From Anaerolineales bacterium (GTDB lineage: Bacteria > Chloroflexota > Anaerolineae > Anaerolineales > UBA6663), in assembly GCA_020850595.1 (NCBI GenBank), contig JADZEK010000109.1, positions 1-64,000 of the forward strand: 64,000 nucleotides of DNA, given 5' to 3'. This document shows, piece by piece, positions 11,990-35,828 of this stretch (position 1 is the stretch's first letter; every line of letters begins with the position of its first letter). A program made the translations under genes and the position numbers. The notes under the pieces were generated by a model. The model saw only the letters and a program-made list of their open reading frames with translations. It ran no database searches and was not told the DNA's origin.

Positions 11990-12031
11990 ACACCGGGTGG
12001 CGGCCCGCTGCCGTTGGAGGACATTCTGCCG

Positions 12032-12313: not shown

Positions 12314-12342
12314 CCGGGGCCGTGCCCCTCGAAGGAGAGCCC

Positions 12343-13667: not shown

Positions 13668-13684
13668 CGGGCACGGGCCAGACG

Positions 13685-14053: not shown

Positions 14054-14307
14054 CCGTCGGCTCTGAATTCAAACACAAGTACTATGAGTGGAGCAACGAA
14101 GTTTTCAGCCGGTCGCCATTCGACCCCAAAACCACGCACATCTTGTGCATGGTGGCGGCCCTGGCGCTGGGCAACGAGGGGGCCGTGTCGTACTTCTACT
14201 TTTCCGCTAAGAAGGCCGGCGCGAGCGAGGCGGAGCTGGCGGCGGCAACCGACATCGCCACCGCCACGGTCGGCCTGAACCTGTATACCCTCCTGCCGAA
14301 AGATTGA
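14050..14307 (+). CDS. Minimal carboxymuconolactone decarboxylase-like protein
   Basis: 85 residues from the ATG overlapping the upstream stop (ATGA). The layout matches a shortened CMD helix bundle: 'TTHILCMVAALALGNEGAVSYFYFSAKKAG' contains the position of the usual CxxC...H, but only one Cys remains and the His is replaced. 'ASEAELAAATDIATATVGLN' is the second signature helix. A third CMD-like protein within 5 kb, all near methyltransferases, implies a shared accessory role that is still unknown. Confidence 0.65.
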   Translation: MTVGSEFKHKYYEWSNEVFSRSPFDPKTTHILCMVAALALGNEGAVSYFYFSAKKAGASEAELAAATDIATATVGLNLYTLLPKD

Positions 14308-14327
14308 CGCCGGTCGAACGGGAACCC

Positions 14328-16676: not shown

Positions 16677-16698
16677 CATTGCCATACAGGAGAACACC

Positions 16699-17811
16699 AT
16701 GCCCGAAAATTCACGCGATGCGGTCCTGAAGGTGCTGCGCGGGCAGAAGGCCGATCACATCCCCAACTTCTCGGGGATGGGCAGCATCACGCTGCACGGC
16801 ATCGAACAGCTCGGCTACCGCTTCAATGAGATCCACGTCGACCCGCGCAAGATGGCCGACGCGGCTGCCAGCACCTATCGGCTCTATGGGGTCGAGAGCG
16901 CGGTAGTGCCCTTCGACATGGGGGTCGTGGCCGAGTCGCTCGGCGCGACGGTCAAGTACTACGAGAAGGCCGACCTGGGGCAGATCATCTACCCGACCAT
17001 GACGCGCAAGGTGATTGACCGGAGCACCGTCGTGGCGCCGGAAGGAGTGAGCGCAGCCGACGCACCGGCCTATGTCATGAAGGAAGTCGAACGCCAGATC
17101 AGCGAGTTCAGCTTCCAGCGGCCGGCCGACCTGGCCACGCGTGGGCGCCTGCCGGTCGTGCTGGAAGCGCTGCGCTTGCTCAAGCGCGAGGTCGGCGACC
17201 AGGTGGCCATCGGCTCGTGGACCCTGGGGCCGTTCACCGAGTTGGGGCAAGTGCTGGACCTGGAAGTGCTGCTGAAGATGGCCGGGCGCAAGCCGCAGGT
17301 GGTGGCGCGCCACCTGGCGTTCATGGTGGACTACCTGGCCGACGTCATCGCGCTGTACATTGACGCCGGGGCCGATTTCATCACCGTGCGCGAGATGGGC
17401 GCGACCGCCAGCATCCTCAGCCCGCGCATGTTCAAGGCCCTGGTGCTGCCCAACCTGCAAGCGCTCTTCAGCCGCATCACCCAGGTGCCGACCATCCTGC
17501 ACATCTGTGGTGACACCAACCCCATCATCGAGATGATGGCGCAGGCGGGCGCCTCGGCGCTGAGCGTGGACCAGGTGAACCGGCTGCCGGAGAGCCGCGC
17601 CAAAGTGCCGGGGGCGGTGCTGCTGGGCAACTATATGGCTTACGGCGCGCCATTCTGCGAAGGCCGCCCGGAAGAAGTGGAAGCGCTGATCCGGCAGTCT
17701 ATCGAGCAGGGCGCTGATGGCATCTGGCCCGGCTGCGACATCTGGCCGGTGGTGCCGCCCGAGAACATGCGGGCCATGATGGCGGCGATGGAGAAGTACG
17801 GCGCCCGCTGA
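16699..17811 (+). CDS. UroD/MtaA-type zinc methyltransferase 3
   Basis: 370 residues, more diverged from copies 1 and 2 and closer in style to MtaA/MtbA and the CmuA N-terminal domain. Zinc ligands: His268-x-Cys270 in 'ILHICGDTN' and Cys346 in 'WPGCDIWPV'. A typical 'IGSWTLGPFTELGQV' segment and an 'ICGDTNPIIEMMAQAG' segment are present. ATG with CAGGAG upstream. It sits directly before the corrinoid-protein gene, so it is the best candidate for the cognate methylcorrinoid:thiol methyltransferase. CmuA joins these two domains in one chain; here they are separate. Confidence 0.87.
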   Translation: MPENSRDAVLKVLRGQKADHIPNFSGMGSITLHGIEQLGYRFNEIHVDPRKMADAAASTYRLYGVESAVVPFDMGVVAESLGATVKYYEKADLGQIIYPTMTRKVIDRSTVVAPEGVSAADAPAYVMKEVERQISEFSFQRPADLATRGRLPVVLEALRLLKREVGDQVAIGSWTLGPFTELGQVLDLEVLLKMAGRKPQVVARHLAFMVDYLADVIALYIDAGADFITVREMGATASILSPRMFKALVLPNLQALFSRITQVPTILHICGDTNPIIEMMAQAGASALSVDQVNRLPESRAKVPGAVLLGNYMAYGAPFCEGRPEEVEALIRQSIEQGADGIWPGCDIWPVVPPENMRAMMAAMEKYGAR

Positions 17812-17850
17812 CGCGCGCCGGACTTCTAACGATGGACGACGGAGGCTGCA

Positions 17851-18588
17851 ATGCCAACCCCAGAACGACAGGCTGATATTCTTGAGCGACTGAAGAACGG
17901 CGTGATCGAGTACGACGAAGACGGCGTCAGCCGTGCGGCCAACGACGCGCTGGCCGAAGGCATGGATGCCTACAAGGCCGTGATGGACGGCCTGGCCGCC
18001 GGCATGGACGTGGTCGGCAAATACTTTGCCACGGGCGAATACTTCGTGCCCGAAGTCTTGATGTGCGCCGACGCGCTGTACGCCGGGCTGAACCTGCTCA
18101 AGCCCCATATCAAGATGGACCCGGCAACCATGGTGAAGGGCACGGTGGTCATCGGCACCGTCGAGGGCGACATCCACGACATCGGCAAAAACCTGGTCAA
18201 GATGATGTTCGAAGTGGCCGGCTTTACCGTGCACGACCTCGGGCGCGATGTGCCGCTGGACTCCTTCGTGGACCGCTACCTGGAGACCGATGCCGACATC
18301 GTGTGTATGAGCGCCATGATGACCACGACCATGATCGGTATGCCGGTGGTGATCGAGAAGGTGCGCGCCAAGAACCCCAACGCCAAGATCATGATCGGCG
18401 GCGCGCCCATCAATGAAGACATTGCCAACAAGTGGGGCGCCGACGGCACCGGCAAGGACGCCCCCAACGCCCTGCAAGAGGCGCTCAACATGGTCGGCGT
18501 GCTGCGCGACCTGGGCGATCAATTCAAGACCGACCGCCAGCAGAAAGAGTGGGGCGCAGACGGTCTGCTGGATGCGACCCGCAGCTAG
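17851..18588 (+). CDS. Corrinoid (B12-binding) methyl carrier protein, MtaC/MtbC-type
   Basis: 245 residues. Residues 1-95 are the helical B12-binding cap ('AVMDGLAAGMDVVGKYFATGEYFVPEVLM' in its usual place). Residues 95-225 are the Rossmann-like cobalamin domain with D-x-H-x-x-G: 'GDIHDIGKN' with His109 as lower cobalt ligand. The tail from about residue 195 (KWGADGTGKDAPN) is longer than in simple MtaC. The methyl group cycles between Co(I) and methyl-Co(III). It shares an operon with three methyltransferases, a RACo-like activator and an MtrH homologue. Confidence 0.92.
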   Translation: MPTPERQADILERLKNGVIEYDEDGVSRAANDALAEGMDAYKAVMDGLAAGMDVVGKYFATGEYFVPEVLMCADALYAGLNLLKPHIKMDPATMVKGTVVIGTVEGDIHDIGKNLVKMMFEVAGFTVHDLGRDVPLDSFVDRYLETDADIVCMSAMMTTTMIGMPVVIEKVRAKNPNAKIMIGGAPINEDIANKWGADGTGKDAPNALQEALNMVGVLRDLGDQFKTDRQQKEWGADGLLDATRS

Positions 18589-19200
18589 GTGGCCGGCGGG
18601 TTGGCACGGGACGACCAGATGGCAGAAACAGAACCAGTCGCCGCTCGCCTGCTGCGAGGCGATAGCGGCCTGACCGACCTGATTGACGCGCGTGACCTGC
18701 CTAAGCACGACCAGCGCTTCGAGGTGCTGGGCGCGCTGGATGAAGCCTCGTCGGCGCTGGGCGTGGCGCGCGCAGTTTCAACGCGATCCGAGACGCGCGC
18801 GCTGCTCCTCGACATCCAGCGCGACCTGTGCTGGATGATGTCGGAGTTGGCCGTCGCTCGCCCGGCCCTGGCCAGAGCGCCGGCCTACATCACGCCGGAG
18901 CGCCTGCACGCGTTGGAGCAGGCCTTTGATGCCCTGGCCGCCGCGTACCCGTCGCCGCCGGCATTCACCGTCCCCGGCGACAGCCTGGTTGGGGCGTTGC
19001 TCCACCTGGCGCGCTCGATTGTGCGCCGCGCCGAGCGGCATGTCACGCGGCTGGCGCACGCGGCGCCGCTGCCCAACCCCCACATCCTCCCCTACCTCAA
19101 CCGGCTGTCCACGCTGGTGTTCGTACTGGCGCGCGCAGAAGAGGCCGAGGCGGGGCTGGCTGCGCCGACCCTGGCCCACGGGACGAGGGGCGGCCTGTGA
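18589..19200 (+). CDS. PduO-type cob(I)alamin adenosyltransferase
   Basis: 203 residues from GTG 18589 (ATG 18619 is an alternative). The five-helix-bundle signature is clear: 'GDSGLTDLIDARDLPKHDQRFE', 'GALDEASSALGVARA', 'IQRDLCWMMSELA', 'VPGDSLVGALLHLARSIVRRAER' and 'LPYLNRLSTLVFVLAR' (each read as short motifs). The canonical T-rich ATP loop is altered: GDSGLTDL instead of TKxGDxGxT. It would make adenosylcobalamin, which methyl transfer does not need, so it may serve corrinoid salvage or have been adapted to load the carrier protein. Confidence 0.82.
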   Translation: MAGGLARDDQMAETEPVAARLLRGDSGLTDLIDARDLPKHDQRFEVLGALDEASSALGVARAVSTRSETRALLLDIQRDLCWMMSELAVARPALARAPAYITPERLHALEQAFDALAAAYPSPPAFTVPGDSLVGALLHLARSIVRRAERHVTRLAHAAPLPNPHILPYLNRLSTLVFVLARAEEAEAGLAAPTLAHGTRGGL

Positions 19201-20087
19201 AGAACCTGGTCCCGCTGCCTTATCGGCGCGTAAGCGTTCAGCCCTACGCCGGGGCGCTGACCGCGACCGGTCTCCGGGAGCACTTCCTGGGACGCGAGGC
19301 TTATCGCCGCACTGATTATGTCGTTTTGCAGCAGGGTGGCGACACGGCCCTCATCGCGATCAGCGCGCCCGATCGGCAGTCGCTATTCAGCCCAATTGAA
19401 ACGGTCGAGGTGCTGGCCCTGCCCGAGGCGTGCCGGTTTGTCGAGTCGTCCGAGGTAGACACCGGCAACCGCTCAGCCCTGGCCGAGGCCGCGCATCAGG
19501 CCGGCGTGGGCGCAGACGGCACGCTGGTCGTGCGCGGGAAGTACGGGCACGTCAACTTCATCCATCACCCCAACCCGCTGGTCATCCGTGTCGTCGAGGT
19601 GGCGCCGCCCGAGCCGCCCAAGCTGTTCGGGCTGGCGCAGCACGTGTTGAGCTACGCCGACCTGCCGGCGATCCGGCTGGAGCTGGAGCGCCTCGACCTG
19701 AACGACCTGGCCGCGGGGCGCCGCCCACCGGCGTTCCTGGTGCCGTGCCGGTCGGGCGGGCTAGAGCGGCTGGGCGCGCCGATCTACTTCCTGGACGAAC
19801 GGCCCGCCACGCGACAGGATTGGCTGCTAATCGGATGCGAGCGCAGCCTGCAGTTCCACCGGCACTACTACGGCGACGAGCCGCCGCGCATCGAGATGTG
19901 CCCGCGCCGGCTGGCCGAGCTGCGCGGCTCGCCCACGCTGCTCAAGTGCTGCCTGCTCGAATTCGACATCGAGCTAGACGGCCAGACGGCGGTGGTGCCG
20001 TGGGGCGCCGACCTGGTAATGGTTGAAGCCGCGCTGCGCCGGCTGGCGAGCCAGTCGGCCGCGACGCCCCAGGCAGGGCCGGCATGA
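19197..20087 (+). CDS. Uncharacterised 296-aa protein at the head of the CoM gene set
   Basis: No family recognised. It starts at a GTG overlapping the previous stop, and its own stop overlaps the comA-like ATG, so it is coupled to both. Visible features are 'GREAYRRTDYVVLQQGGD', 'VRGKYGHVNFIHHPNPLVIRV', 'PAFLVPCRSGGLERLG', and a Cys-rich end 'IEMCPRRLAEL' and 'LLKCCLLEFDIE'. There are many His and Cys but no canonical metal motif and no membrane helix. Position suggests a part in CoM synthesis or use, for example sulfonate handling or sulfur delivery. Confidence 0.65.
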   Translation: MKNLVPLPYRRVSVQPYAGALTATGLREHFLGREAYRRTDYVVLQQGGDTALIAISAPDRQSLFSPIETVEVLALPEACRFVESSEVDTGNRSALAEAAHQAGVGADGTLVVRGKYGHVNFIHHPNPLVIRVVEVAPPEPPKLFGLAQHVLSYADLPAIRLELERLDLNDLAAGRRPPAFLVPCRSGGLERLGAPIYFLDERPATRQDWLLIGCERSLQFHRHYYGDEPPRIEMCPRRLAELRGSPTLLKCCLLEFDIELDGQTAVVPWGADLVMVEAALRRLASQSAATPQAGPA

Positions 20088-20953
20088 AGGCCTGGGCGGG
20101 CGTCTTCCCCGGGCTGGGCGCGCGCAGCCGAAAACCGCGCACCGCGGGCCTGACCATGGTGATTGACAAGGGCCAGGGACCGCACGCCACGGCCGATCTG
20201 CTGGCGCAGGGTGCCGACTACCTCGATCACTGGAAACTGTCCTTTGGCACCTCGGCCCTGCTGGACGAAGACGACCTACGCGCCAAGATCGCCCTGATCA
20301 AGCAGCATGGCATCCTCACCTATCCGGGCGGCACGCTCACCGAATACGCCCTCGTGCGCGGCAAGTGCCGCGAGTTTTTCGAGCGGGCGCGCGAGCTTGG
20401 CTTTAACGCCGTGGAGGTCTCCGACGGCACAATCGAACTGTCGGCTCCAGACCGGCACGCGATGATAAACTGCGCCCACGACCTCGGGCTGGCGGTGGTC
20501 GCCGAGGTGGGCAAGAAGGACCCGCGCCGCCAACCCCAGGCGCGCGTGCTGGCCGCGCTAGCCCAGGCCGATTTCGAGGCGGGCGCCGACTGGGTCATTG
20601 TCGAGGCGCGCGAATCGGGCAAGGGCGTTGGGGTGTACGACAGCGATGGGCGCGTGACCGAATACGACGTGGGCGTGATCGCGGCCGCCCTCGACACCTA
20701 CCTGGGGCGCCTGATCTGGGAAGCGCCGCTTAAAAGCCAGCAGGAGTATTTCATCCTGCGCTTTGGCCCAGATGTCAACCTGGGCAACATCCAGCCGCAC
20801 GAGCTGCTCGGCCTGGAAGCGCTGCGGGCCGGGCTGCGCTTTGAGACCTTTAAGCCGCTCGTGGAACAGATGGAGCACGAAGGCAGCCCCGACATCCCCT
20901 CGCTGTCTGATCGGGTGGCGCGCATGGCACGGCGCCGGCTGCCAGAGGCCTGA
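20084..20953 (+). CDS. comA: Phosphosulfolactate synthase (ComA/XcbB-type), first step of coenzyme M synthesis
   Basis: 289 residues. The family reaction adds sulfite to phosphoenolpyruvate to give (R)-phosphosulfolactate. Characteristic motifs in order: 'KPRTAGLTMVIDKGQG', 'YLDHWKLSFGTSALL', 'TYPGGTLTEYAL', 'GFNAVEVSDGTIEL', 'VVAEVGKKDP', 'ADWVIVEARESGKGVGVYD', 'WEAPLKSQQEYFILRFGPDVN' (read as two motifs) and 'LGNIQP'. Length matches the family (about 250-290). The bacterial counterpart in Xanthobacter Py2 is XcbB1. Sulfite needed here could also be the product of the sHdr genes downstream, a notable link. It is coupled by ATGA overlap to the 296-aa protein. Confidence 0.92.
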   Translation: MKAWAGVFPGLGARSRKPRTAGLTMVIDKGQGPHATADLLAQGADYLDHWKLSFGTSALLDEDDLRAKIALIKQHGILTYPGGTLTEYALVRGKCREFFERARELGFNAVEVSDGTIELSAPDRHAMINCAHDLGLAVVAEVGKKDPRRQPQARVLAALAQADFEAGADWVIVEARESGKGVGVYDSDGRVTEYDVGVIAAALDTYLGRLIWEAPLKSQQEYFILRFGPDVNLGNIQPHELLGLEALRAGLRFETFKPLVEQMEHEGSPDIPSLSDRVARMARRRLPEA

Positions 20954-20975
20954 TCCGATCCACAAGGAGAACGCC

Positions 20976-22049
20976 ATGGGCCTGTTTCGGTTCGACACAC
21001 CGCAGCGCGTAGCGCGGATCGGCTCTCTGGAGTGCGGCGGTCAGCCGGGCGAACGGCCGCCGGTGCTGATGGCCAACATGTTCCAGACCGGGCACAAGAT
21101 CGTCGAGAGCCGCAAGCCGCCCCGCTGGGACAAGGCCAAAGCGCTCGATGAGATCAAACTGGTGGAGGCCATGTCGCACGAGACCGGCGTGCCGGCCATC
21201 ATCGGCATCGTGGCGCCCACGCCTGACGAGATCCAGGCCTATTGCGAGTGGTTCCTGTCAGTGAACGACACGCTGGTCTTTCAAATCGACACCTGGACCG
21301 AGGAGGCCCGCCGGGCCGGCGCGCGCTTCGTCAAGGCGGCCGGAGTACAGGACCGCTTCAACTACAACAGCATCACGGCCTGGGACCCTGACATCCCCGA
21401 CCAGGTCGCCGAACTGCGTGAGTGCGGCATCCGGTCGGTAATCTTGCAGCCATTTGACACCGACGACAAGCGCGCCACCGGTCGGGTCAAGTCGCTGCGC
21501 CGCATCCTGGCCCAAATTGAGGGCGGCCAGTTCGACTCAATCCTGGTAGACACCACCACCATGAACCTGCCGACCCAGGGCTTCTGCTACCTGGCCAACC
21601 GGCTGGTCAAGGAAGAGTTCGGCCTGCCCGTCGGCAACGCGCCGGCCAACGGGTCGTACATGTGGAAGTCGGTAATTGAGAAGTGGGGCCGCCCGGCGTT
21701 TCAGGGGATGGATGCCGCCATGCACGGTATCGCGGCGGTACTGTGGAACGACTGGATCGCCTACGGCCCGATCACGGGCACGCGCCGCGTCTTCACGGCC
21801 GTGGCCGCTGCCGTTGCGATGGTGACGGTGATGGCCTGGGACGAGGGCCTGGAGCTGCCGGAGGCCCCCGACCACCCGCTGAACAAGCACTTCCCCAAGG
21901 AAGTCGAGTTCATGCGCGGGCTGCGCCAGGCGCGCAGTGACCGGTTGATGGAACGCCAGCAGACCGTGGGCGATAAGCGCCGCGCCAAACGTGATACCGA
22001 TCTGATGCCTGACAGCGCCGCCGCCATCGAGCCTGACCCCCTGACCTGA
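20976..22049 (+). CDS. mtrH: MtrH/CmuB-like methylcorrinoid:tetrahydro(methano)pterin or folate methyltransferase
   Basis: 357 residues from the ATG at 20976 (AAGGAGAACGCC upstream). The N-terminus 'GSLECGGQPGERPPVLMANMF' and 'MFQTGHKIVESR' match the MtrH signature, and the TIM-barrel body carries 'VDTTTMNLPTQG', 'GLPVGNAPANGSYMW' and 'DAAMHGIAAVLWNDWIAYGPI'. MtrH moves methyl between a pterin and cobalamin. Stand-alone bacterial versions such as CmuB transfer to tetrahydrofolate. No other Mtr subunits are present, so no sodium-pumping complex forms. It sits inside the CoM gene set, tying methyl transfer to CoM. Confidence 0.9.
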   Translation: MGLFRFDTPQRVARIGSLECGGQPGERPPVLMANMFQTGHKIVESRKPPRWDKAKALDEIKLVEAMSHETGVPAIIGIVAPTPDEIQAYCEWFLSVNDTLVFQIDTWTEEARRAGARFVKAAGVQDRFNYNSITAWDPDIPDQVAELRECGIRSVILQPFDTDDKRATGRVKSLRRILAQIEGGQFDSILVDTTTMNLPTQGFCYLANRLVKEEFGLPVGNAPANGSYMWKSVIEKWGRPAFQGMDAAMHGIAAVLWNDWIAYGPITGTRRVFTAVAAAVAMVTVMAWDEGLELPEAPDHPLNKHFPKEVEFMRGLRQARSDRLMERQQTVGDKRRAKRDTDLMPDSAAAIEPDPLT

Positions 22050-22052
22050 GCC

Positions 22053-23738
22053 ATGCCAGCTGGGCCGACGCCTGCTCCCCCGCCCGCGAACGACCCCGCC
22101 GGTCGGTTGGCAGGCGGGCCTGCGCCCGAATTGGTGGCGACAGCCTACCTGCGCGAAGTGCGCGACCAGGTTGGCTTATACCGGGGAATGAGCCAGGCGG
22201 ACCTGGCCCATGTAGTCATGCTGCTGGAAGCCGGCCTGGTGCCACGCGAGGCCGGTGGGGCCTTGCTGGCGGCGCTGCTCGCTATGCACCCCGACCCGCC
22301 ACTGGACTTCGTGCTCGACCCGGCCCAAGGCGACTTGTATTCGAACCGCGAAGCCTACCTGCGCATGCTCACGCCGGCAGCCGGCTGGCTGTCGGTTGGC
22401 CGCGCTCGGCGCGAGGCGACAACGGTGGGCTGGCGCCTGGCCGTCCGCGAGCGACTGCTGGCCCTGGCCGGTGCGCTCGCGCAGTGCGCCCAGGCGGTCC
22501 TGATCCGAGCCGAAGCCGAGCGTGCCACGCTCTTCCCCGACTACACCTACCTGCAGCCGGCCCAACCCACCACCTTTGGGCATTACCTGCTGACCTTCGC
22601 GTACCCGCTGCTGCGCGACCTCGATCGGCTGCGCGCAGCCTACCCGCGCGCCAACGCCAGCCCGGCCGGCTCGGGCAGCGTCAACGGCAGCCGCCTGCCG
22701 CTGGACCGCGGTCGGCTGGCTGATCTGTTGGGCTGCGATACCGTCATCACCCACACTCGCGACGCGATGTGGCAGGCCGATGGCCCCATCGAGCTGGCCG
22801 CGCTGATTAGCGCCGCGCTAGTCAACCTCGATCGTTTGGCCGAGGACTTGCAGCTCTTCGCCACGGCCGAGTTTGGGCTGGTGGCCCTGGCCGACCGCCA
22901 CTCGCGCACCAGCGTCATCATGCCGCAGAAAAAGAACCCCTACGCCCTGGCCTACCTGCGCGGCCTGTGCGGCGAGGCGATCGGCACGCTGGCGGCCATG
23001 GCGGCTGTCGGCAAGACCCCCTCCGGCCAGATAGACAGCCGCCTGTTCGTCTACGGGACCATCCCGCGCGCGCTGGACAGCACAGCCGGCGCGGCGCGCC
23101 TGATGACGGACGTGGTGCGCGGCCTCCAGGTAGACGCCGGGCGCAGCACGCGGCGCGCCGCCGAAGATTTTCTCGGCGCCACCGACCTGGCAGAGGTCGT
23201 CATGCTGCACGCCGGCCTCGACTACAAGACGGCGCACGGCCTGGTGGCCCGGGCGGTGCGCGAAGCGCTGGAAACCGGCGCGACGACCCTCAGCGCGGGC
23301 AGGCTCGACGCCGCGGCGCTGGCGATGCTGGGGCGCCCCCTTGGCCTTACCCCGGAAGCTGTGGCTGAGGCGCTTGACCCGGCCCGGATTGTGGCGGCGC
23401 GCAGCGGTCTGGGCGGCGCCGCGCTGCCGGCCGTCATGCAGATGATCGCGGAGTGCCGCGAGGCGTTAGCCGACCATGCCCGCTGGCGCGCCCAGGCAGA
23501 GGCGCGGCTGGCCGCGGCCGAGACCGGCCTGCTGATGGCCGTCGCCGCCCACAAGTTAGCCGGCGCCCGGCCGGCCGAAGAAGCAACTCCGTCGGAGCCT
23601 GGCGCGGACTCACCGGGGGCGCACCTCCCGGCCGGCGCCCCGCCTGAACTGCGCCAGCCGCCGTCGCTCGACGACATCGCCGATTTCGTCTTCAAAGACT
23701 TGCCCCGGCCGCCCAACCGGCGCCGCTGGAGCCAGTAG
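22053..23738 (+). CDS. Argininosuccinate-lyase-like member of the aspartase/fumarase superfamily; candidate CoM-pathway lyase
   Basis: 561 residues, longer than ArgH (about 460) because of an Ala/Pro-rich C-terminal extension from about residue 475. Superfamily signature 'RTSVIMPQKKNPYALAY' (GSxxMPxKxNP type) is present with 'YLQPAQPTTFGHYLL' and 'SGSVNGSRLPLDR' in the right order. In Xanthobacter, XcbC1 of this superfamily eliminates phosphate from phosphosulfolactate to give sulfoacrylate, and XcbD1 is a second member. Position between comA/mtrH and the P450 suggests one of those roles rather than arginine synthesis. Confidence 0.75.
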   Translation: MPAGPTPAPPPANDPAGRLAGGPAPELVATAYLREVRDQVGLYRGMSQADLAHVVMLLEAGLVPREAGGALLAALLAMHPDPPLDFVLDPAQGDLYSNREAYLRMLTPAAGWLSVGRARREATTVGWRLAVRERLLALAGALAQCAQAVLIRAEAERATLFPDYTYLQPAQPTTFGHYLLTFAYPLLRDLDRLRAAYPRANASPAGSGSVNGSRLPLDRGRLADLLGCDTVITHTRDAMWQADGPIELAALISAALVNLDRLAEDLQLFATAEFGLVALADRHSRTSVIMPQKKNPYALAYLRGLCGEAIGTLAAMAAVGKTPSGQIDSRLFVYGTIPRALDSTAGAARLMTDVVRGLQVDAGRSTRRAAEDFLGATDLAEVVMLHAGLDYKTAHGLVARAVREALETGATTLSAGRLDAAALAMLGRPLGLTPEAVAEALDPARIVAARSGLGGAALPAVMQMIAECREALADHARWRAQAEARLAAAETGLLMAVAAHKLAGARPAEEATPSEPGADSPGAHLPAGAPPELRQPPSLDDIADFVFKDLPRPPNRRRWSQ

Positions 23739-23772
23739 CCCGCCGCCGCCCCGGCCTGCCTGGAGGCCGACA

Positions 23773-25002
23773 ATGACAAACCCCGCTGCCAACCCCCTCA
23801 GCCTGTCCAACCTCCTGCGGCCCGAAGTCCGGGCCGATCCGTACCCTTTCTACCGGACCCTGCGCACCGAAGACCCGGTTCACTGGGATGAGGCGCTGGG
23901 TTTCTGGGTGCTCACGCGCTACGCCGACGTCGCGCGTGCCTTTCAAGATCCGCGCTTCTCCCGGGCGCAGGGCTTAATGGCCGGGTTCCATCGGCTGCCG
24001 GCCGCCGAGCAGCAGATCGCCGAGCCTGTCTATCACGCCTTCTCCCAGGCGATGCCCTACGCCGACCCGCCCTATCACACCCGGCTGCGCGGGCTGGTCA
24101 ACAAATCCTTCACCCCGCGCGTCGTAGAGCGCATGCGGCCCGTCATTCAGCGCGTCATTAACGACCTGCTAGATTCCGCCGCAGCGATGGGCGGCATGGA
24201 CGTAATCCCCGACCTGGCGTACCCGCTGCCCATTATCGTCATTGCCGAGCTGCTGGGGTTGCCGGTCGAAGACCGCCAGCGCTTCAAGACCTGGTCGGCC
24301 GATGCCTTCGCCGTCCTGGGCGTCGTCCGCCATTCGCCCGACCTGATGGCCAGCGCCGCCCGCAGTATGGCCGAAATGTCGGACTACATCCTGGCGCTCA
24401 GCCACGAACGCCGCCTGCGGCCCCAAGAAGATTTGCTGACGGCGCTGGCGACCGTGGCGGAGGCCGGCGACCGCCTGACACACGGCGAATTAGTCGCCAA
24501 CGTCAGCATCCTGCTGGCCGCCGGGCACGAGACGACCTCCAACGTCATCGGCAACGGCCTGCTGGCCCTGCTGTGCCATCCCGACCAACTTCAGCGGCTG
24601 CGTGACAACCCTGCGCTCGCCGAGTCTGCCGTCAACGAGGTGATGCGCTACGACAATGCCGTGCAAGTCGTATACCGTTCGACCGTTGACGAAGTTGATT
24701 TTGGTGACAGGCGCATCGGCCCGGGGCAGCTCGTCAACATGGTCGTCGGCGCGGCGAATCGAGACCCCGAACGGTTCTCCAGCCCAGACGTGTTCGATAT
24801 TACGCGCGACGAGGGCAAGCACGTCGGTTTCGGCCTGGGCATCCACTTCTGCATCGGGGCGCCGCTGGCGCGCCTGGAGATCCAAATGGCCTTCACGTCG
24901 CTGCTGCAGCGCTTTCCCAACTTGCGGCTGGCCGCGGAAACCCTGGAGTGGCAGGCGCACCCCACCTTCCGCGGTCTGCGGTCCTTGCCGGTTGCGCTTT
25001 AG
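23773..25002 (+). CDS. Cytochrome P450
   Basis: 409 residues, soluble bacterial type. The I-helix carries 'AAGHETTSN', the ExxR helix 'NEVMRYDN', and the heme loop 'FGLGIHFCIGAPLARLE' with Cys360 as heme thiolate. Most similar in style to CYP107-like enzymes. No ferredoxin or ferredoxin reductase gene is adjacent, so electrons must come from elsewhere. It lies between the two putative CoM-pathway lyases. P450s can hydroxylate or O/S-demethylate small molecules, so it may act on the methylated substrate or a CoM derivative. This is speculative. Confidence 0.92.
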   Translation: MTNPAANPLSLSNLLRPEVRADPYPFYRTLRTEDPVHWDEALGFWVLTRYADVARAFQDPRFSRAQGLMAGFHRLPAAEQQIAEPVYHAFSQAMPYADPPYHTRLRGLVNKSFTPRVVERMRPVIQRVINDLLDSAAAMGGMDVIPDLAYPLPIIVIAELLGLPVEDRQRFKTWSADAFAVLGVVRHSPDLMASAARSMAEMSDYILALSHERRLRPQEDLLTALATVAEAGDRLTHGELVANVSILLAAGHETTSNVIGNGLLALLCHPDQLQRLRDNPALAESAVNEVMRYDNAVQVVYRSTVDEVDFGDRRIGPGQLVNMVVGAANRDPERFSSPDVFDITRDEGKHVGFGLGIHFCIGAPLARLEIQMAFTSLLQRFPNLRLAAETLEWQAHPTFRGLRSLPVAL

Positions 25003-25068
25003 GCCGCCTGGCTGCATGATCCGTCTGTCGCCCGGCCGCCCCGCGGCCGCTGCCTGGAGTCTGCTGTC

Positions 25069-26448
25069 ATGCCCGCCCACCTGGCCGAATCGCTGATCTA
25101 CCGCAACGCCTGGGGCACTCCTGAGATCCATGCGTTGTTCGACGACGAACCGCGCACCCGCGCCTGGCTGGAGATCCTGGCAACCCTGGCCGAGGCTCAG
25201 GCCGAGGTGGGGCTGATCCCGCCGTTGGCCGCGGGGCAGGTGGCTCGCGCCTGCCGCGAACTGCCGCTCGATGCCGCGTTTTTCGATGAAGTGCGCCGCG
25301 GCTATGAATCCACCAACCATTCGACCCTCGGCCTCATCCAGGCCGTGCAGCGCCGCTGCCCCGGCGACGCCGGCGAATGGGTGTACTACGGCGCGACCGT
25401 CCAAGACATCACCGATACCTGGATGATGATGACCCTGCGGCAGGTGGCGGGCCTGGTCGCGCGCGACCTGCGGGCGACGGAAGGCAACCTGCTCGGTCTG
25501 GCACAGGCCCACCGCGATACCGTGATGGCTGGGCGCACCCACGGCCAGCCGGGCCTGCCTATCACCTTCGGCTTCAAGGCCGCCGTGTGGGCCAGTGAAA
25601 CGCGCCGTCACCTCCATCGCCTGCGCGACCTGGCGCCCCGGCTGGGTGTCGGGCAACTGGCCGGCGGCGTCGGGAGCCTGTCGTCCCTCGGCCCGCGCGG
25701 GCTGGAACTGCAAGCGACGTTCCTGGCGCGTCTGGGCCTGCGCGCGCCCGACATCACCTGGACCACGGCGCGCGATGTGGTCGTCGAGTGGTTTCAACTC
25801 CTGACGCTCATCGCCGGCACGGCCGACAAGATCGGCCATGAAGTCTACAACTTGCAGCGGCCCGAGATCGGCGAGTTGAGCGAGGGCTTTGTGCCTGGCA
25901 CGGTCGGCAGCATAACCATGCCCCACAAGCGAAACCCGGAGATCGCCGAACACCTGGGCACGCTGGCGCGCGTCATTCGCTACAACACGGCCCTGGTGGC
26001 CGAAAGTCAGGTTCACGATCACGAGCGCGACGGGCGCGCCTGGAAGGCCGAATGGGCCGTCTTGGCCGAAACCTGCTTGACCGCCGCCAAGCTCCTGGCT
26101 CTGACACAGACGCTGACGGCCCACCTGATCGTCCATCCCGAGCGGATGCTGGCTAACCTGGAAGCGACGCGTGGCTTCATCCTGTCCGAGGCCGTCATGC
26201 TGGCGCTGGCCGAGAGGGTCGGCAAACAGAGTGCGCACACGCTCGTTTACGAGACGAGCATGCGCGCGCACCAGACCGGCCAGACTCTCAAGCGCGCCAT
26301 CCTGGAGAACGACGACCTCCGCAAGTATTTCTCGGCCGAGGCCCTTGACGGCCTCTTCGACTACCGCCGCCACGTCGGCCTGTGCGGCCCGTTGGTGGAT
26401 CGGATCGTGGAGCGCGCCCGGGACGAGCGCGCCACGGAGGATCAATGA
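25069..26448 (+). CDS. Adenylosuccinate-lyase-like member of the aspartase/fumarase superfamily; candidate CoM-pathway lyase
   Basis: 459 residues, normal length for PurB/3-carboxymuconate cycloisomerase relatives. Signature 'GTVGSITMPHKRNPEIAEHL' (GSSxMPxKxN type) and 'STNHSTLGLIQAV', 'YGATVQDITDTW', 'GRTHGQPGLPITFGFK' are in the usual places, as are paired active-site histidines. Together with the protein at 22053 it recreates the XcbC1/XcbD1 pair of bacterial CoM synthesis; which one eliminates phosphate cannot be told from sequence. A purine role is less likely because no other pur gene is near. The stop overlaps the next ATG. Confidence 0.8.
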   Translation: MPAHLAESLIYRNAWGTPEIHALFDDEPRTRAWLEILATLAEAQAEVGLIPPLAAGQVARACRELPLDAAFFDEVRRGYESTNHSTLGLIQAVQRRCPGDAGEWVYYGATVQDITDTWMMMTLRQVAGLVARDLRATEGNLLGLAQAHRDTVMAGRTHGQPGLPITFGFKAAVWASETRRHLHRLRDLAPRLGVGQLAGGVGSLSSLGPRGLELQATFLARLGLRAPDITWTTARDVVVEWFQLLTLIAGTADKIGHEVYNLQRPEIGELSEGFVPGTVGSITMPHKRNPEIAEHLGTLARVIRYNTALVAESQVHDHERDGRAWKAEWAVLAETCLTAAKLLALTQTLTAHLIVHPERMLANLEATRGFILSEAVMLALAERVGKQSAHTLVYETSMRAHQTGQTLKRAILENDDLRKYFSAEALDGLFDYRRHVGLCGPLVDRIVERARDERATEDQ

Positions 26449-27044
26449 CGCTGAACTCTGCCCCGGCGTGGAGAATCGCCGGCCTCTATTTCGAGGCGTG
26501 TAACTGCGCATTGGTCTGCCCGTGTTACTCCACCCAGCCGCCCACATACGGCTTCTGCGAGGGCAACTGTGCCTGGCACGTCCAACACGGCCATTTCGGC
26601 GCAACGGCGCTCGACGGGCTGAACGTGATCATGGTCCAGCGCTGTGACGGCTTCATGCGCGAGACCCACTGGCAATGCTGGTTCTACATTGACGACCGCG
26701 CCACACCTGAACAGTTCGATGCCCTGACCGGCATCTTCAGTCTGCGGGTGGGGGGACACCTGGCCAAGACCTTCAGCAAACTGTGGGAGGTGCGGCGAGT
26801 CGAGCCAGCGGCCATCGCGATGAAACTCGACGGCTGGCAGCACCGCGCGACTGTGCTGGGCCGGCTGGGGCTGGCCGTCGGCCTCTTGAAGCCCGAGGCC
26901 GGACCGACCCTGTGTCGCGTGCCGAATACGCCCGGCGTGGCCGCCCTGGCTGAAGAAGACTGGTTCGACGATGGCGCCATGCAGTTTGATCACCGGGGCA
27001 AGAACGCCCTGACGACGACCTTTGCGTATCACTCCGACCAGTAG
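26445..27044 (+). CDS. DUF1326-family protein
   Basis: 199 residues from the ATG at 26445 (GGAGG upstream, overlapping the preceding stop). Signature N-terminus 'FEACNCALVCPCYSTQPPTYGFCEGNCAW' has clustered cysteines (CNCxxxCPC), characteristic of DUF1326. 'WQCWFYIDDRA' and 'GGHLAKTFSKLWEV' follow. DUF1326 genes usually pair with DUF2182 membrane-protein genes, as here (next gene). The Cys cluster suggests metal or heme binding; copper handling has been proposed for some pairs, but no function is firmly established. Presence inside a CoM cluster is unusual. Confidence 0.82.
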   Translation: MTLNSAPAWRIAGLYFEACNCALVCPCYSTQPPTYGFCEGNCAWHVQHGHFGATALDGLNVIMVQRCDGFMRETHWQCWFYIDDRATPEQFDALTGIFSLRVGGHLAKTFSKLWEVRRVEPAAIAMKLDGWQHRATVLGRLGLAVGLLKPEAGPTLCRVPNTPGVAALAEEDWFDDGAMQFDHRGKNALTTTFAYHSDQ

Positions 27045-27050
27045 CCCACG

Positions 27051-27824
27051 ATGAATCCAGCCGGGCTTTCCCCGCACTCACGCCGCGACCGGTGGCTGGT
27101 GTTGTTCGGCCTGGTTGGCATCACGGTCGTGGCCTGGGCCTACCTGCTGCAATCCGGCCGGGGCATGCGCATAGAGGCCGTGATGCCGCCGGCGGGCGCG
27201 GAGCCGGTCTTCGAATGGACGCCGACGCTGGCGATGTGGAGCGTGATGATGGTGGCGATGATGCTCCCGTCGGCCGCGCCGGCTATCTTGCTGTTTGACG
27301 CGATCAGCCGCCAGTCTGAGCCGCCGCTGCCGCTGGCAGTGCCGGTCTTCACCTTTGGCTACCTGGCCGGCTGGATCGCCTTCAGCTTGTTGGCGACTCT
27401 GGCGCAGTCGGCCTTGTATTCAGCCGCGCTGCTGTCGCCCGCGATGAGCATCGTCAATCCGGCCTGGAGCGGCGCCCTGCTGGTCGCCGCCGGCCTCTTT
27501 CAATGGACGCCCCTCAAATCGGCCTGCCTGAGCCGCTGCCGCTCGCCGCGGAGTCTGTTCATGACTGAATGGCGCGGTGGGCTGAGCGGCGCGTTCCGCC
27601 TGGGGCTGAAGCACAGCGGCTATTGCCTGGGCTGCTGTGGGCTGCTGATGGCGCTGCTCTTCGTCGTTGGCAGCCTGAATCTTATCTGGGTCGCCGTAGT
27701 AGCGACTGGTGTGTTGGTCGAAAAACTCGCGCCGTCGGGCCGATGGATTAGCCGTATCGCCGGCGTCCTCCTGTTCGCGCTCGGGGTCTGGCACATTCTC
27801 CAGCCGGCGATCGTCAATCGCTGA
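27051..27824 (+). CDS. DUF2182 integral membrane protein (predicted metal-binding)
   Basis: 257 residues with about 6 membrane helices. Family signature: 'MWSVMMVAMMLPSAAP', 'FQWTPLKSACLSRCRSP', 'LKHSGYCLGCCGLLMALLF' and 'GSLNLIWVA' with a later Glu-Lys. The paired Cys motifs lie at membrane faces and could bind metal. It follows DUF1326 by 6 bases and belongs to the same operon. It may load copper or another metal for a cuproenzyme, conceivably the cbb3 oxidase at 6901, but this is inference. Confidence 0.82.
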   Translation: MNPAGLSPHSRRDRWLVLFGLVGITVVAWAYLLQSGRGMRIEAVMPPAGAEPVFEWTPTLAMWSVMMVAMMLPSAAPAILLFDAISRQSEPPLPLAVPVFTFGYLAGWIAFSLLATLAQSALYSAALLSPAMSIVNPAWSGALLVAAGLFQWTPLKSACLSRCRSPRSLFMTEWRGGLSGAFRLGLKHSGYCLGCCGLLMALLFVVGSLNLIWVAVVATGVLVEKLAPSGRWISRIAGVLLFALGVWHILQPAIVNR

Positions 27825-27833
27825 GCGCCAAGC

Positions 27834-28823
27834 ATGCCTGCGCGTTTTCCGCTCGCCCTCCTTCCCACGCCCCTCGTCGAAGCCCCGCGCCTCTCGCAGG
27901 CGCTCGGCGGGCCGCGCCTGCTGATCAAGCGTGACGACCTGACGGGCTTCGCCCTGGGCGGCAACAAGGTGCGCGGGCTGGAGTATTACCTGGCCGAGGC
28001 CCTGGCGCAGGGCGCCGACGTCCTCGTGACCGGGGCCGGACCGCAGTCAAATCACGTCCGGGTGACGGTGGCGGCGGCGCGCGTGGCCGGGCTGGAGGCG
28101 GTGGCGGTCATCCACGGCGAGCGCCCGCCCGTGGCGCTGGGCAACTTGCTGCTCGACGAGCTGCTGGGCGCCGAGCTGCGCTTCACCGGTTCACCCGACC
28201 GCGCGCAGGTTGATGTCGAGATTGAGCGCGTGGGTGCTGAGCTGGCGGCGGCTGGCCGGCGGCCTTACCTGATCCCGCGCGGCGGGGCCTCGGCGTTGGG
28301 GGCGCTGGGCTACCTGGCCGCCGTGTCGGAGCTTGGCGCGCAACTCGCCGAGCTGGGCGCACGCCCAGCCTGGCTGGTGCTGGCGACCGGGTCATGTGGC
28401 ACCCAGGCCGGCCTGCTGGCGGGCATCAAGCTCTTCGGCGCGCCCTACCGCCTGCTGGGCATTACCGTGAGCCGGCCGGTGGCGGAGTGCTGCGAGCGCA
28501 TCACGCGCCTGGCGATCGCGGCGGCTGCGCTGGCGGAGAGTCCCATCACGGTCCTGTCCGAGGACGTCGTTGTCCGTGACGGCTACATCGGCGCGGGCTA
28601 CGGCATTCCCAGCCCGGAGGCGGCCGCCGCTATCCGTCTGGCCGCCCGCACCGAGGGCCTCTTTCTCGACCCAACCTACACCGGCAAGGGCCTGGCCGGG
28701 CTGATCGGCGAGATCAAGAGCGGGCGCTTGTCGCCGGACGACACCGTAATCTATTTGCACACCGGCGGCGAGCCGGGCCTGCTGGCCCACCCTGAAGTCG
28801 CCGGCCTGGAGGCGCTGGCCTGA
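27834..28823 (+). CDS. PLP-dependent D-cysteine desulfhydrase/ACC deaminase-like enzyme; candidate last CoM step (XcbE1-like)
   Basis: 329 residues, fold type II PLP enzyme. The PLP lysine is Lys45 in 'LGGNKVRGLEYYL'; 'GAGPQSNHVRVTVAAA', 'IPRGGASALGALGY' and 'TGSCGTQAGLLAG' match the family, and 'LHTGGEPGLLAH' is the conserved C-terminal loop. In Xanthobacter Py2 XcbE1 of this family is the proposed late enzyme of CoM formation after sulfoacrylate. With ComA and two superfamily lyases within 9 kb, that role is more likely than amino-acid catabolism. It ends the CoM set 39 bases before a kinase gene. Confidence 0.82.
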   Translation: MPARFPLALLPTPLVEAPRLSQALGGPRLLIKRDDLTGFALGGNKVRGLEYYLAEALAQGADVLVTGAGPQSNHVRVTVAAARVAGLEAVAVIHGERPPVALGNLLLDELLGAELRFTGSPDRAQVDVEIERVGAELAAAGRRPYLIPRGGASALGALGYLAAVSELGAQLAELGARPAWLVLATGSCGTQAGLLAGIKLFGAPYRLLGITVSRPVAECCERITRLAIAAAALAESPITVLSEDVVVRDGYIGAGYGIPSPEAAAAIRLAARTEGLFLDPTYTGKGLAGLIGEIKSGRLSPDDTVIYLHTGGEPGLLAHPEVAGLEALA

Positions 28824-28862: not shown

Positions 28863-30581
28863 ATGAGCGAAGCAATCAGCCCGCGTGTTGAAGCTCACCT
28901 GATCACCTCCCGGCGGGTGTGCGGCCTGCTGGTGGTGTACCGCTGGCTTAGCCTCGCCCCGGTGGTGGTGGCGCTGGCGAGCGCCAGCCTCACGCCGAAC
29001 CTGCCGCTCTCGCTGGCGGCCGCCGTCGCACTGAATCTGATCATCACCCTGGCTGCTCAGCCCGCCGGCGCCGCCCTGCGGCGCTGGCCGCTGCTGCTGC
29101 TGGGCGACCTGGCGCTGTGCGGTGGATTGATCTGGCTCAGCGGCGGCTGGGATTCGCCCTATTACCTCTACAGCTTCAGCCCCCTGCTGGCCGCCGCTTT
29201 CTTCTTCCAGTGGCGCGGCGCCATCCTCGGCGCCGCTGGGATGGCAGCCTTCTTCGCACTGGCCGGCTCCGGCCAGGCGGGCGCCGGCCCGGCCTGGCTC
29301 AAGTTGATCGAAGAACTGACCGGCTATTTCGTCATGGCCACCGTTTTCGGCTCTGCTGCCACCCTGCTGGCCCGCTACACAAAGTCTCTTGTCGAACTCA
29401 ACCGCGCTCATCGTGATCTGGAAGTCATCCACCAACTCACCCTCGCCCTCCAGAGCGCAGCCGACGTGGTGGAAGTGGAAGAATGCGTGCTGGAGGCGGT
29501 GACCAACGACCTGGGTTTCCCCCGCGCCGTGATTGCTCTAGTGGATCAGCAAGAGAATGTGCTGACTGCCTGGCTGGGCAAGGCGCGTGACGGGCGCGCC
29601 ATGTTTGCCGGCGGCCTGCCCCACCCAATCCGTTTGCCCCTCACGCCCGACGCCGGAGCGATCGCCCAGAGCCTGCTCGCCGGTCAAAGTCAACTGGCGG
29701 CCAACGGCCGCCTGACCTCGAACGAACAGGTAAACACCTACCTGGGGCCGGAGGCCTATCACATCTTCCCCTTGCAATTGCGCCAGCATCCCGTTGGTGT
29801 GCTGTTGGTAGACGCCTCGTCGGGTGATGACCCCTCCAGCCTGCATTCGCTGCACGCCGTTGGCAACCAGGCGGCCGTCGCGGTGGGGACCACCATGCTG
29901 TGTGTTGACCGGGCCCAGCGGCTAGCCGTGCAGGACGAGCGCATTCGTATTGCCCGCGAACTGCACGACACGGCCTCCCAATCGCTGTTCGGCATCGTCT
30001 TCGCGCTGGACGGCCTGGGCAAGCTGCTCCCCGATCAGCCGCAGATGGTTAAGGTAGAATTAGAGCAAGTGCGCGACTTGGCCGAGACCACGCGCGCACA
30101 AATGCGGCAATCCATCATGGATTTGTGGCCCTCGGCCCTGACGGCCGAAACTTTCGAGGCCGACCTGCGCCGTTTTGTGACCCAGACCTGCCGCGCCGGC
30201 GAGCTGCAAATGGACGTTCAAGTGCGCGGCGCCTTTGCCCGCCTCTCACCCCTCCACCGCCGCAGCCTGTATCGCATGGCCCAGGAGGCCCTGACCAACG
30301 TCGTCAAACACGCCCATGCCCGCCGCGCCGAGGTGCTGTTGGAAATCGGCGCCTCCCAGGCCAGCCTGTCGGTGCGCGACGACGGACGCGGCTTTGACCC
30401 GGCCGGCGCGCTGGCGCGTGAACGTGACCGAGAACGGTTTGGCCTGCGGGGCATTACCGAGCGCGCGGCCTCCCTCGGCGGCGTCTGCCAAGTGATTTCT
30501 GCCCCCGGAGCCGGCGCCACCGTGGTCACCAGCCTGCCGTTGACCGATGCCCACGAGCTTCCGCCGCCTCTGCGCCGATGA
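28863..30581 (+). CDS. Membrane sensor histidine kinase, NarL-type (HisKA_3) with GAF domain
   Basis: 572 residues. Six hydrophobic helices at residues about 20-180, a short coiled coil, a GAF-like domain at about 195-340, then HisKA_3 with phospho-acceptor His in 'RIARELHDTASQSLFG'. The ATPase carries 'ALTNVVKHAHARRA' (N box), 'VRDDGRGFDPAG' (G1) and 'RFGLRGITERAASLGG' (G2). Its stop overlaps the chelatase I start (ATGA), and the likely partner response regulator is at 33459, with the two chelatase genes between. The signal is unknown; GAF domains often bind small molecules or redox cofactors. Confidence 0.92.
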   Translation: MSEAISPRVEAHLITSRRVCGLLVVYRWLSLAPVVVALASASLTPNLPLSLAAAVALNLIITLAAQPAGAALRRWPLLLLGDLALCGGLIWLSGGWDSPYYLYSFSPLLAAAFFFQWRGAILGAAGMAAFFALAGSGQAGAGPAWLKLIEELTGYFVMATVFGSAATLLARYTKSLVELNRAHRDLEVIHQLTLALQSAADVVEVEECVLEAVTNDLGFPRAVIALVDQQENVLTAWLGKARDGRAMFAGGLPHPIRLPLTPDAGAIAQSLLAGQSQLAANGRLTSNEQVNTYLGPEAYHIFPLQLRQHPVGVLLVDASSGDDPSSLHSLHAVGNQAAVAVGTTMLCVDRAQRLAVQDERIRIARELHDTASQSLFGIVFALDGLGKLLPDQPQMVKVELEQVRDLAETTRAQMRQSIMDLWPSALTAETFEADLRRFVTQTCRAGELQMDVQVRGAFARLSPLHRRSLYRMAQEALTNVVKHAHARRAEVLLEIGASQASLSVRDDGRGFDPAGALARERDRERFGLRGITERAASLGGVCQVISAPGAGATVVTSLPLTDAHELPPPLRR

Positions 30582-31609: not shown

Positions 31610-31610
31610 C

Positions 31611-35336: not shown

Positions 35337-35352
35337 CGACGTGGAGGCGGCT

Positions 35353-35736: not shown

Positions 35737-35740
35737 CCGA

Positions 35741-35777: not shown

Positions 35778-35828
35778 CCGGCGGGCGCGGACGCTGAGCG
35801 CTCTGCCGGTGCACCATGGGGAGTCGCT

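Follow-up and report, generated by a model that had tools for sequence, protein, structure and literature searches.

A bacterial coenzyme M biosynthesis locus among methyltransferase and sulfur-oxidation genes, with no epoxide genes found

Introduction

Coenzyme M (CoM) is a cofactor best known from methane-making archaea, and in bacteria the genes for making it usually lie beside alkene-degrading genes. In Xanthobacter autotrophicus Py2 (plasmid pXAUT01, CP000782) the five genes xcbA-B-C-D-E have epoxyalkane:CoM transferase (EaCoMT), 2-KPCC and two SDR genes just upstream. Methylotrophic methanogens have soluble CoM methyltransferase systems (MtaA/MtaC, MtbA, MtsA/MtsB) and the Mtr complex. 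Anaerobes also carry type 1 mlp gene clusters, with several MtaA-like proteins, a corrinoid protein, an activator and His-Cys-Cys sites, which were selected for having no folate methyltransferase within 20 kb (PMC10418091). Finally, type II sHdr sulfur-oxidation clusters are defined by shdrC1-B1-A-H-B3 and etfAB in one syntenic cluster (PMC11582611), and we found no paper containing both "sHdr" and "coenzyme M" among those searched. Here we analyse a 64,000-nucleotide stretch of DNA (hereafter the window; contig JADZEK010000109.1, assembly GCA_020850595.1) from a bacterium related to Chloroflexota, in which genes resembling parts of these systems lie together.

Results and discussion

A complete set of xcb genes in the Py2 order

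A first-pass annotation, made from sequence alone, had proposed a complete-looking CoM biosynthesis cluster at 19197–28823, with a ComA-type synthase, two aspartase/fumarase-superfamily lyases, a desulfhydrase-like PLP enzyme and an MtrH homologue, and no epoxide carboxylation genes. Profile searches confirmed every gene named, and showed in addition that the first gene of the stretch, which that annotation did not name, is XcbA. The stretch holds orthologues of all five Py2 genes in the Py2 order, although gene starts here and below are those of mechanical ORF calls and may be off. All of the features discussed are on the + strand.

XcbA (19197–20087; DUF7714) scored 455.9 bits against NF052538 (cut-off 150), and XcbB, the phosphosulfolactate synthase (20084–20953), scored 309 bits against TIGR03849 (cut-off 280) and matched the ComA structure 1qwg (E 2.1e-60). 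XcbC, a phosphosulfolactate-eliminating lyase of the ArgH-like branch (22053–23738), scored 573.1 bits against NF052535, just under the cut-off of 575, compared to 262.9 for the ArgH model. The PurB-type lyase XcbD (25069–26448; 3-sulfopropionylcysteine synthase in NCBIfam) scored 670.8 bits against NF052536 (cut-off 600). The PLP enzyme XcbE (27834–28823) scored 397.7 bits against NF052537, clearly under the cut-off of 450, and 321.8 against CuyA. Identity to the Py2 proteins by BLAST was 63% for A, 50% for B, 48% for C, 53% for D and 53% for E.

Two of these scores fall below NCBI's trusted cut-offs. We asked by phylogeny whether the lyases might instead group with true ArgH and PurB, and the PLP enzyme with D-cysteine desulfhydrase, as would be expected if the first-pass interpretation were wrong. 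This was not the case. XcbC, XcbD and XcbE were each split from ArgH, PurB/PcaB and DcyD/AcdS, respectively, at 100/100 support with the window proteins on the Xcb side, although the XcbE tree contained three DcyD and one AcdS and no CuyA. Taken together, these data strongly support assignment of the locus to bacterial CoM biosynthesis, as inferred from sequence and without measurement of CoM in cells.

No EaCoMT was found in the genome, whereas the same query gave hits in 20 of 36 other genomes. A search with 2-KPCC found only six relatives at 26–30% identity, and the SDR dehydrogenases were sought at the locus only. The absence of EaCoMT from a MAG is not proof, since it was also missed in three other genomes examined (L011, L016, with a 33% hit only, and L025) whose loci hold other epoxide genes. 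The window genome is itself a MAG with 9.58% estimated contamination, although the locus recurs in relatives.

The xcb genes adjoin a corrinoid methyltransferase operon

The locus is larger than first annotated, and the two flanking systems that suggest what CoM is for had been missed. Upstream of xcbA, the region 10352–18588 contains the parts of a corrinoid methyltransferase operon with gaps under 2 kb. It encodes three MtaA-like UroD proteins: UroD1 (10352–11470, start uncertain; PF01208 183.8 bits), UroD2 (12633–13667, start uncertain; MtaA/CmuA-like, PF01208 161.5 bits) and UroD3 (16699–17811; PF01208 204.6 bits, NF004889 204.7 against a cut-off of 244). All three have, by sequence motif, the H-x-C...C ligands (H270, C272 and C352 in UroD1) that have been tied to S- or Se-methyltransferases (PMC10418091). 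The two that were compared with solved structures, UroD1 and UroD3, both found the CoM methyltransferase MtaA (4ay7) first (E 2.6e-26 and 7.4e-39). However, the best of the three reached only 192.3 bits against the NCBIfam equivalog for MtaA (cut-off 400), and the UroD and MtrH proteins score under every NCBIfam cut-off for named functions, so they may act on other substrates.

The operon also contains a TrmB-type regulator (11564–11989; PF01978), a DUF6951 protein that is a conserved partner (13685–14053; PF22263), and a RACo/AcsV-type reductive activator of corrinoid proteins with a C-terminal cNMP-binding domain (14304–16676; PF14574 298.7 bits; NF040756 424.1 bits, below its cut-off of 800). 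These are joined by a corrinoid protein with DxHxxG (17851–18588; PF02310/PF02607; DIHDIG at 107) and a PduO-type cob(I)alamin adenosyltransferase (18589–19200; TIGR00636 115.2 bits). The end of the adenosyltransferase gene overlaps the start of xcbA by 4 bases. The MtrH homologue (20973–22049; PF02007 144.8 bits) lies inside the xcb genes, 19 and 3 bases from xcbB and xcbC, so one operon is likely. It matched MtrH (8z9u, 1.5e-35) and methylcorrinoid:tetrahydrofolate methyltransferase (6sj8, 3.7e-34) structures, and is probably a methyl-corrinoid:tetrahydrofolate methyltransferase. The presence of this homologue within 20 kb, together with a CoM cluster and nearby oxidase genes, sets the locus apart from the type 1 mlp clusters.

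Parts of the linkage are kept at 53–92% protein identity in four other Chloroflexota genomes (L006, L007, L008 and L052, also used here for their loci), in one of them only in part. The orthologue of the corrinoid protein (80–91%) occurs only in these four, besides the window genome, among 24 genomes searched, and no EaCoMT was found in the four. The five xcb genes occur together in L006 and L008. MtrH is inside the set in L006 as well, whereas in L007 and L008 it lies in the corrinoid operon. L052 shows no MtrH, UroD2, XcbC, XcbD or XcbE in its 20.8-kb locus, outside of which these were not searched for.

A type II sHdr cluster lies downstream

A type II sHdr sulfur-oxidation cluster follows 6–7 kb downstream of the xcb genes. 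DsrE2 and a second DsrE, both sulfur carriers, lie at 34815–35736 (NF047629 210 bits, at its cut-off of 210; PF02635), followed at 35829–42629 by sHdrC1, B1, A, a hypothetical protein, fused C2B2 (B3), EtfB and EtfA, a gene content that fits the type II definition. Next to it is an HdrB/D-like iron-sulfur protein (42633–44792; PF02754, Fer4), and at 45603–47603 lie two GcvH-like LbpA proteins (PF01597, ES.K motifs) and a lipoate-protein ligase (PF21948). A TusA-DsrE fusion, also a sulfur carrier, lies on the other side of the locus (6184–6891; PF01206 51.7 bits, PF02635 51.5 bits) and is also at the locus in L008 and L052 (73% and 65%). Three of the four relatives also have sHdr, one of them on the same contig; L052 has no sHdrB1 in its genome.

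A possible role for CoM as a methyl carrier

By homology, XcbB would be expected to join PEP and sulfite, XcbC to remove phosphate, XcbD to add cysteine, and XcbE, with XcbA, to release CoM. We hypothesize that this CoM serves as the methyl-carrier thiol of the adjoining operon. In this model, the UroD proteins, with their His-Cys-Cys zinc sites, move methyl groups between a methylated sulfur donor (such as dimethyl sulfide or methanethiol), the corrinoid protein and CoM, while the RACo-type protein keeps the corrinoid in the Co(I) state. MtrH would pass the methyl to tetrahydrofolate for oxidation, and the sulfur left behind would go through the TusA/DsrE carriers to sHdr, which is expected to make sulfite. 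This would be a soluble functional analogue of methanogen Mtr run in the oxidative direction, with no methyl-CoM reductase: no McrA was found in any of 7 genomes searched, including that of the window, whereas the control search gave hits in two methanogens. MTHFR and formyl-H4F ligase are in 7 of 7 genomes searched, however two of the seven lack the locus, so this is weak support. The use of CoM, the donor, the direction and the folate end point are inferred from gene context only, and we consider this model the most likely one but no better than an even proposition. Furthermore, another genome, H5_CFX5 (L014/L051), has xcb genes, no EaCoMT hit and no orthologous corrinoid protein, so corrinoid transfer cannot explain every epoxide-free CoM locus. 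A conserved bacterial locus that makes CoM beside corrinoid methyltransferases and sHdr, with no epoxide genes found, would give bacterial CoM a second role, make the fate of methylated sulfur compounds in Chloroflexota testable, and bear on whether methanogen-type methyl-CoM chemistry exists outside archaea. The locus also warns against reading xcb genes in metagenomes as proof of alkene metabolism.

A less likely but still possible alternative is that CoM works mainly with sHdr, as a carrier of sulfane sulfur (CoM persulfide or mixed disulfide) or a thiol reductant, and that the methyltransferases are a neighbouring but separate module. Among 68 XcbA genomes examined (67 plus that of the window), sHdrB1 is present in 6 of 13 with no epoxide gene found, in 2 of 54 with some epoxide gene, and not in 1 unclassified. 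These counts are not corrected for kinship (four of the six positive genomes are of one order) and some of the "no epoxide gene" assignments rest on short contigs. All 4 XcbA genomes among 400 of the order are among the 39 with sHdrB1, sHdr and xcb share a contig in the window and in a second genome (G017), and two other epoxide-free xcb genomes, L054 (Chloroflexi) and L046 (a Deltaproteobacteria record), also have sHdrB1. In addition, sHdr releases sulfite in Hyphomicrobium (PMC12423496), and sulfite is probably the substrate of XcbB. However, sHdr does not need CoM: 35 of the 39 sHdr genomes in the order sample have no XcbA, G003, of the same genus as G017, has sHdr without XcbA, and L052 links xcb with the corrinoid genes without sHdrB1. 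A more speculative combination of the two ideas, which we regard as unlikely though not excluded, is a methanogen-like methyl-CoM cycle without methyl-CoM reductase, in which methyl-CoM is a central intermediate in the demethylation of methyl-sulfur compounds and a CoM persulfide or mixed disulfide hands sulfur and electrons to the heterodisulfide-reductase-like sHdr complex, a bacterial counterpart of the CoM-S-S-CoB/Hdr pair.

It is also conceivable, though doubtful, that the system runs the other way, from methyl-H4F to the corrinoid to CoM, making methyl-CoM or another methylated thiol for export or detoxification. The methanogen reaction of MtrH runs in that direction and the steps are likely reversible, however no McrA was found to use methyl-CoM, and the sulfur-oxidation, oxidase and nitrate reductase genes nearby suggest a catabolic setting. 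A role in alkene or epoxide metabolism, with a P450 as epoxidase and a UroD protein or an unlinked gene in place of EaCoMT, appears very unlikely. A P450 does lie inside the cluster, and EaCoMT belongs to the same superfamily as the UroD proteins (PMC10418091), but besides the EaCoMT and 2-KPCC results above, BLAST of UroD1–3 against Py2 EaCoMT gave no match at 1e-5, and the P450 is missing from L006 and L008. Equally improbable is that the enzymes make another sulfonate or that the cluster is a relic not used for CoM. The XcbE and XcbC scores, below NCBI's trusted cut-offs, could point this way, yet all five reading frames are open, their identity to Py2 is 48–63%, and XcbC, XcbD and XcbE keep the motifs looked for.

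Accessory genes at the locus

The P450 (23773–25002; PF00067 115.1 bits, with a heme motif), a DUF1326 protein (26382–27044, start uncertain; PF07040) and a DUF2182/PpoB2 membrane protein (27051–27824; PF09948) lie inside the xcb stretch and are absent from L006 and L008, the two relatives' loci that cover xcbC to xcbE. In contrast, a histidine kinase (28863–30581; PF07730) and a response regulator (33459–34091) form a pair that is also at the locus in L006 and L008. Two PF02627 proteins precede UroD1: CMD2 (9903–10355) is AhpD-like with CxxCxxxH, whereas CMD1 (9420–9851) is carboxymuconolactone-decarboxylase-like with CxxH only, and is found at 89, 77 and 65% identity in L006, L008 and L052, and at 67% beside xcb in L051.

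Gene content of the coenzyme M stretch

The stretch at 19197-28823 contains, on the + strand, XcbA, XcbB (ComA), an MtrH homologue, XcbC, a cytochrome P450, XcbD, a DUF1326 protein, a DUF2182/PpoB2 membrane protein and XcbE. In NCBIfam profile searches, XcbA (455.9, cut-off 150), ComA (309, cut-off 280) and XcbD (670.8, cut-off 600) scored above the trusted cut-offs of their models. XcbC (573.1, cut-off 575) and XcbE (397.7, cut-off 450) scored below theirs, XcbC by two bits. Compared with the genes on the Xanthobacter Py2 plasmid, the proteins are 63, 50, 48, 53 and 53% identical for A to E, and the gene order is the same. The P450 and the DUF1326-DUF2182 pair (23773-27824) are inserted between xcb genes in the window but are absent from L006 and L008, the two relatives' loci that cover the region, and we therefore do not regard them as core parts. 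Sox-tusA-p450 genes are mentioned for the sulfur oxidiser Hyphomicrobium (PMC12423496). We also searched the window for structured RNAs, however no cobalamin riboswitch or other known RNA was found at gathering threshold, and there are no tRNAs.

We next examined XcbA (19197-20087, DUF7714). Its structure was predicted with a mean pLDDT of 93.3, however no match to a PDB fold is convincing and nothing is claimed here about its chemistry. The three matches with E up to 0.001 have TM-scores of only 0.12-0.16, and none of the 50 matches listed exceeds 0.22 by query length. Alignment A6 used 45 loci plus the window, after we had dropped L011, L027 and L055 and other loci, as well as L054 and L060 because of stops. 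XcbA keeps Cys184, Cys214, Cys235, Cys251 and Cys252, together with several Arg, His and Trp residues, invariant across 46 sequences.

Phylogenetic separation of the Xcb enzymes

To test whether the lyases and the PLP enzyme could instead be true ArgH, PurB or DcyD proteins, we built maximum-likelihood trees that included E. coli, plasmid and archaeal ArgH, PurB, PcaB, DcyD and AcdS sequences. The Xcb sequences came from 13 of the 80 loci that we retained from an XcbA search (see below) plus Py2, JS614, NBB4 and Methylocystis iwaonis, with NBB4 XcbD left out because of internal stops. The 18 XcbC, 17 XcbD and 17 XcbE sequences each fall on one side of a branch with 100/100 support, and the window's proteins sit with those of L006 and L008. 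A true ArgH/PurB/DcyD identity was therefore rejected. Only these unrooted splits are used, because the lyase tree carries a long-branch warning for E. coli PurB and one other lyase, and in the XcbE tree the midpoint root used for drawing nests DcyD/AcdS among the XcbE sequences. CuyA was not included in the trees, however the family model prefers XcbE (397.7) over CuyA (321.8).

Search for an epoxide pathway

Py2 EaCoMT found nothing in the window genome, although the same query gave hits in 20 of 36 other genomes. A search with 2-KPCC found six relatives at only 26-30% identity, and the SDR genes were sought at the locus only. The window genome is a MAG (99.13% complete, 9.58% contamination), and a miss in a MAG is not proof of absence: EaCoMT was also not found, or only at 33%, for L011, L016 and L025, three relatives' loci that carry other epoxide genes. 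The UroD proteins encoded upstream of xcbA gave no BLAST match to EaCoMT at 1e-5, and were rejected as candidates for this enzyme.

The coenzyme M genes adjoin corrinoid methyltransferase and sHdr genes

Upstream, at 9420-19200, lie two CMD proteins, three UroD/MtaA-like proteins, a TrmB regulator, a DUF6951 protein, a RACo-type activator, a corrinoid protein and a PduO-type adenosyltransferase. With mechanically called gene starts, the adenosyltransferase stop overlaps the xcbA start by 4 bases, xcbA overlaps xcbB by 4 bases, and mtrH is 19 and 3 bases from its neighbours. All three UroD proteins keep HxC and a later GC, the His-Cys-Cys pattern that Kountz and Balskus associate with S- or Se-methyltransferases (PMC10418091). 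UroD3 and UroD1, the two that were compared with the PDB, match M. mazei MtaA (4ay7) best, at 7.4e-39 and 2.6e-26, respectively. MtrH matches both archaeal MtrH and a methylcorrinoid:tetrahydrofolate methyltransferase.

Downstream, after a histidine kinase, two MoxR/magnesium-chelatase-like ATPase genes (30578-33452, the second with a VWA domain, between the kinase and the response regulator) and a response regulator, comes a type II sHdr cluster at 34815-47603 with DsrE carriers, LbpA proteins and a lipoate ligase. Its gene content is that given for type II in PMC11582611. An NrfD/Fe-S plus molybdopterin oxidoreductase set follows the sHdr cluster, and NarH/NarG-like genes lie on the minus strand beyond it (47431-52914 and 57694-63435).

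Conservation of the linkage

A search of genome contigs with XcbA gave 167 relatives, of which the best 80 were kept. Corrinoid-operon genes accompany xcb in 4 of these 80 loci (L006, L007, L008 and L052), all Chloroflexota by record title, and none of the four has an epoxide gene at the locus or an EaCoMT hit in the genome. The order of the blocks differs between them. In the genome of L008 (G017), one contig carries MtrH, adenosyltransferase, corrinoid protein, UroD3, activator, DUF6951, UroD2, TrmB, UroD1, XcbE to XcbA, CMD2, CMD1, oxidase genes, TusA-DsrE, kinase, regulator, DsrE and sHdr genes. MtrH is inside xcb in the window and L006, whereas it lies in the corrinoid operon in L007 and L008. 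L007's contig ends in XcbC. L052 is the weakest case, as its locus shows only XcbA and XcbB of the CoM set, no UroD2 and no MtrH. The orthologue of the corrinoid protein (80-91%) is found only in these four besides the window genome among 24 genomes, and the other hits are at 45% or less. At L114 (5216-11223, contig bases about 69-75 kb) there is a second corrinoid system on the same contig, with a RACo-type activator and a corrinoid protein whose neighbours look PucR-like and MttB-like by eye, suggesting quaternary amine demethylation.

Association of xcb with sHdr

Within the same 400 genomes of the order, XcbA is in 4 and sHdrB1 (E up to 1e-60) is in 39, and all 4 are among the 39 (hypergeometric P 7.8e-5). 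In the XcbA search of the order, one control, Methanosarcina acetivorans, gave a hit below the cut-off. We then compared 68 XcbA genomes, namely the window's and those of 67 of the 80 loci. One further locus, L051, shares its genome with L014, and 12 loci were left out by us (L012, L019, L022, L036, L037, L041, L053, L066, L072, L081, L082 and L083). Here sHdrB1 is in 6 of 13 genomes with no epoxide gene found, in 2 of 54 with one, and not in one unclassified genome (Fisher P 3.9e-4). By EaCoMT alone it is 6 of 17 against 2 of 48 (P 0.003), with 3 not tested. These tests ignore kinship, and four of the six positives are of one order. Furthermore, EaCoMT was searched genome-wide for 36 loci and was otherwise taken from the locus. 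L021, L056 and L067 have no EaCoMT at 40% or more at the locus and no genome-wide test; L021 is the unclassified case, while L056 and L067 count as epoxide-type through SDR hits, as does L050 through one 41% SDR hit that may be generic. The association does not indicate a strict need, because 35 of the 39 sHdr genomes lack XcbA and L052 has no sHdrB1. Two actinobacterial genomes with epoxide-type CoM loci, those of L063 and L075, also carry sHdrB1 at 71-72% identity, so the two systems can coexist.

Possible role of coenzyme M

The locus combines a full Xcb set with an interleaved corrinoid methyltransferase operon. The steps of the CoM pathway are assigned provisionally here, from NCBIfam names and from PMC11507031 and PMC12068725. 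On the basis of gene content, and without a measurement of CoM, we hypothesize that CoM is made and acts as methyl acceptor or donor for one or more of the UroD proteins. In this model, methyl groups from a methylated sulfur compound would pass through the corrinoid protein and MtrH to tetrahydrofolate and the released sulfur would be oxidised by sHdr, although neither the donor nor the direction is known. The sulfite that sHdr is expected to make (PMC12423496) could also feed XcbB. Folate C1 genes were found in 7 of 7 genomes looked at, however two of the seven lack the locus, so this is weak evidence. Of the alternatives, linked epoxide metabolism was rejected on the searches described above, with the limits that apply to a MAG, and methanogenesis was rejected because no McrA was found in the seven genomes searched.

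CoM genes were previously stated to be found only in methanogens and aerobic alkene-using bacteria (PMC11507031). We found no description of the present locus in the papers examined and no paper that treats sHdr together with coenzyme M, although most subscription papers lay outside the literature searched and prior mention cannot be excluded. Two further xcbABCDE loci without an EaCoMT hit in their genomes, in L054 (8148-19131) and L046 (15726-20174), lie beside AIR-synthase-like and AllG (oxamate carbamoyltransferase subunit) genes, and both genomes have sHdrB1; these are possibly a third kind of CoM locus. The Anaerolineales MAG H5_CFX5 has its xcb genes split in two loci, L051 (7887-13467) and L014 (9962-12371), one with a CMD1 homologue (67%) next to XcbA, without an EaCoMT hit and without the orthologous corrinoid protein.
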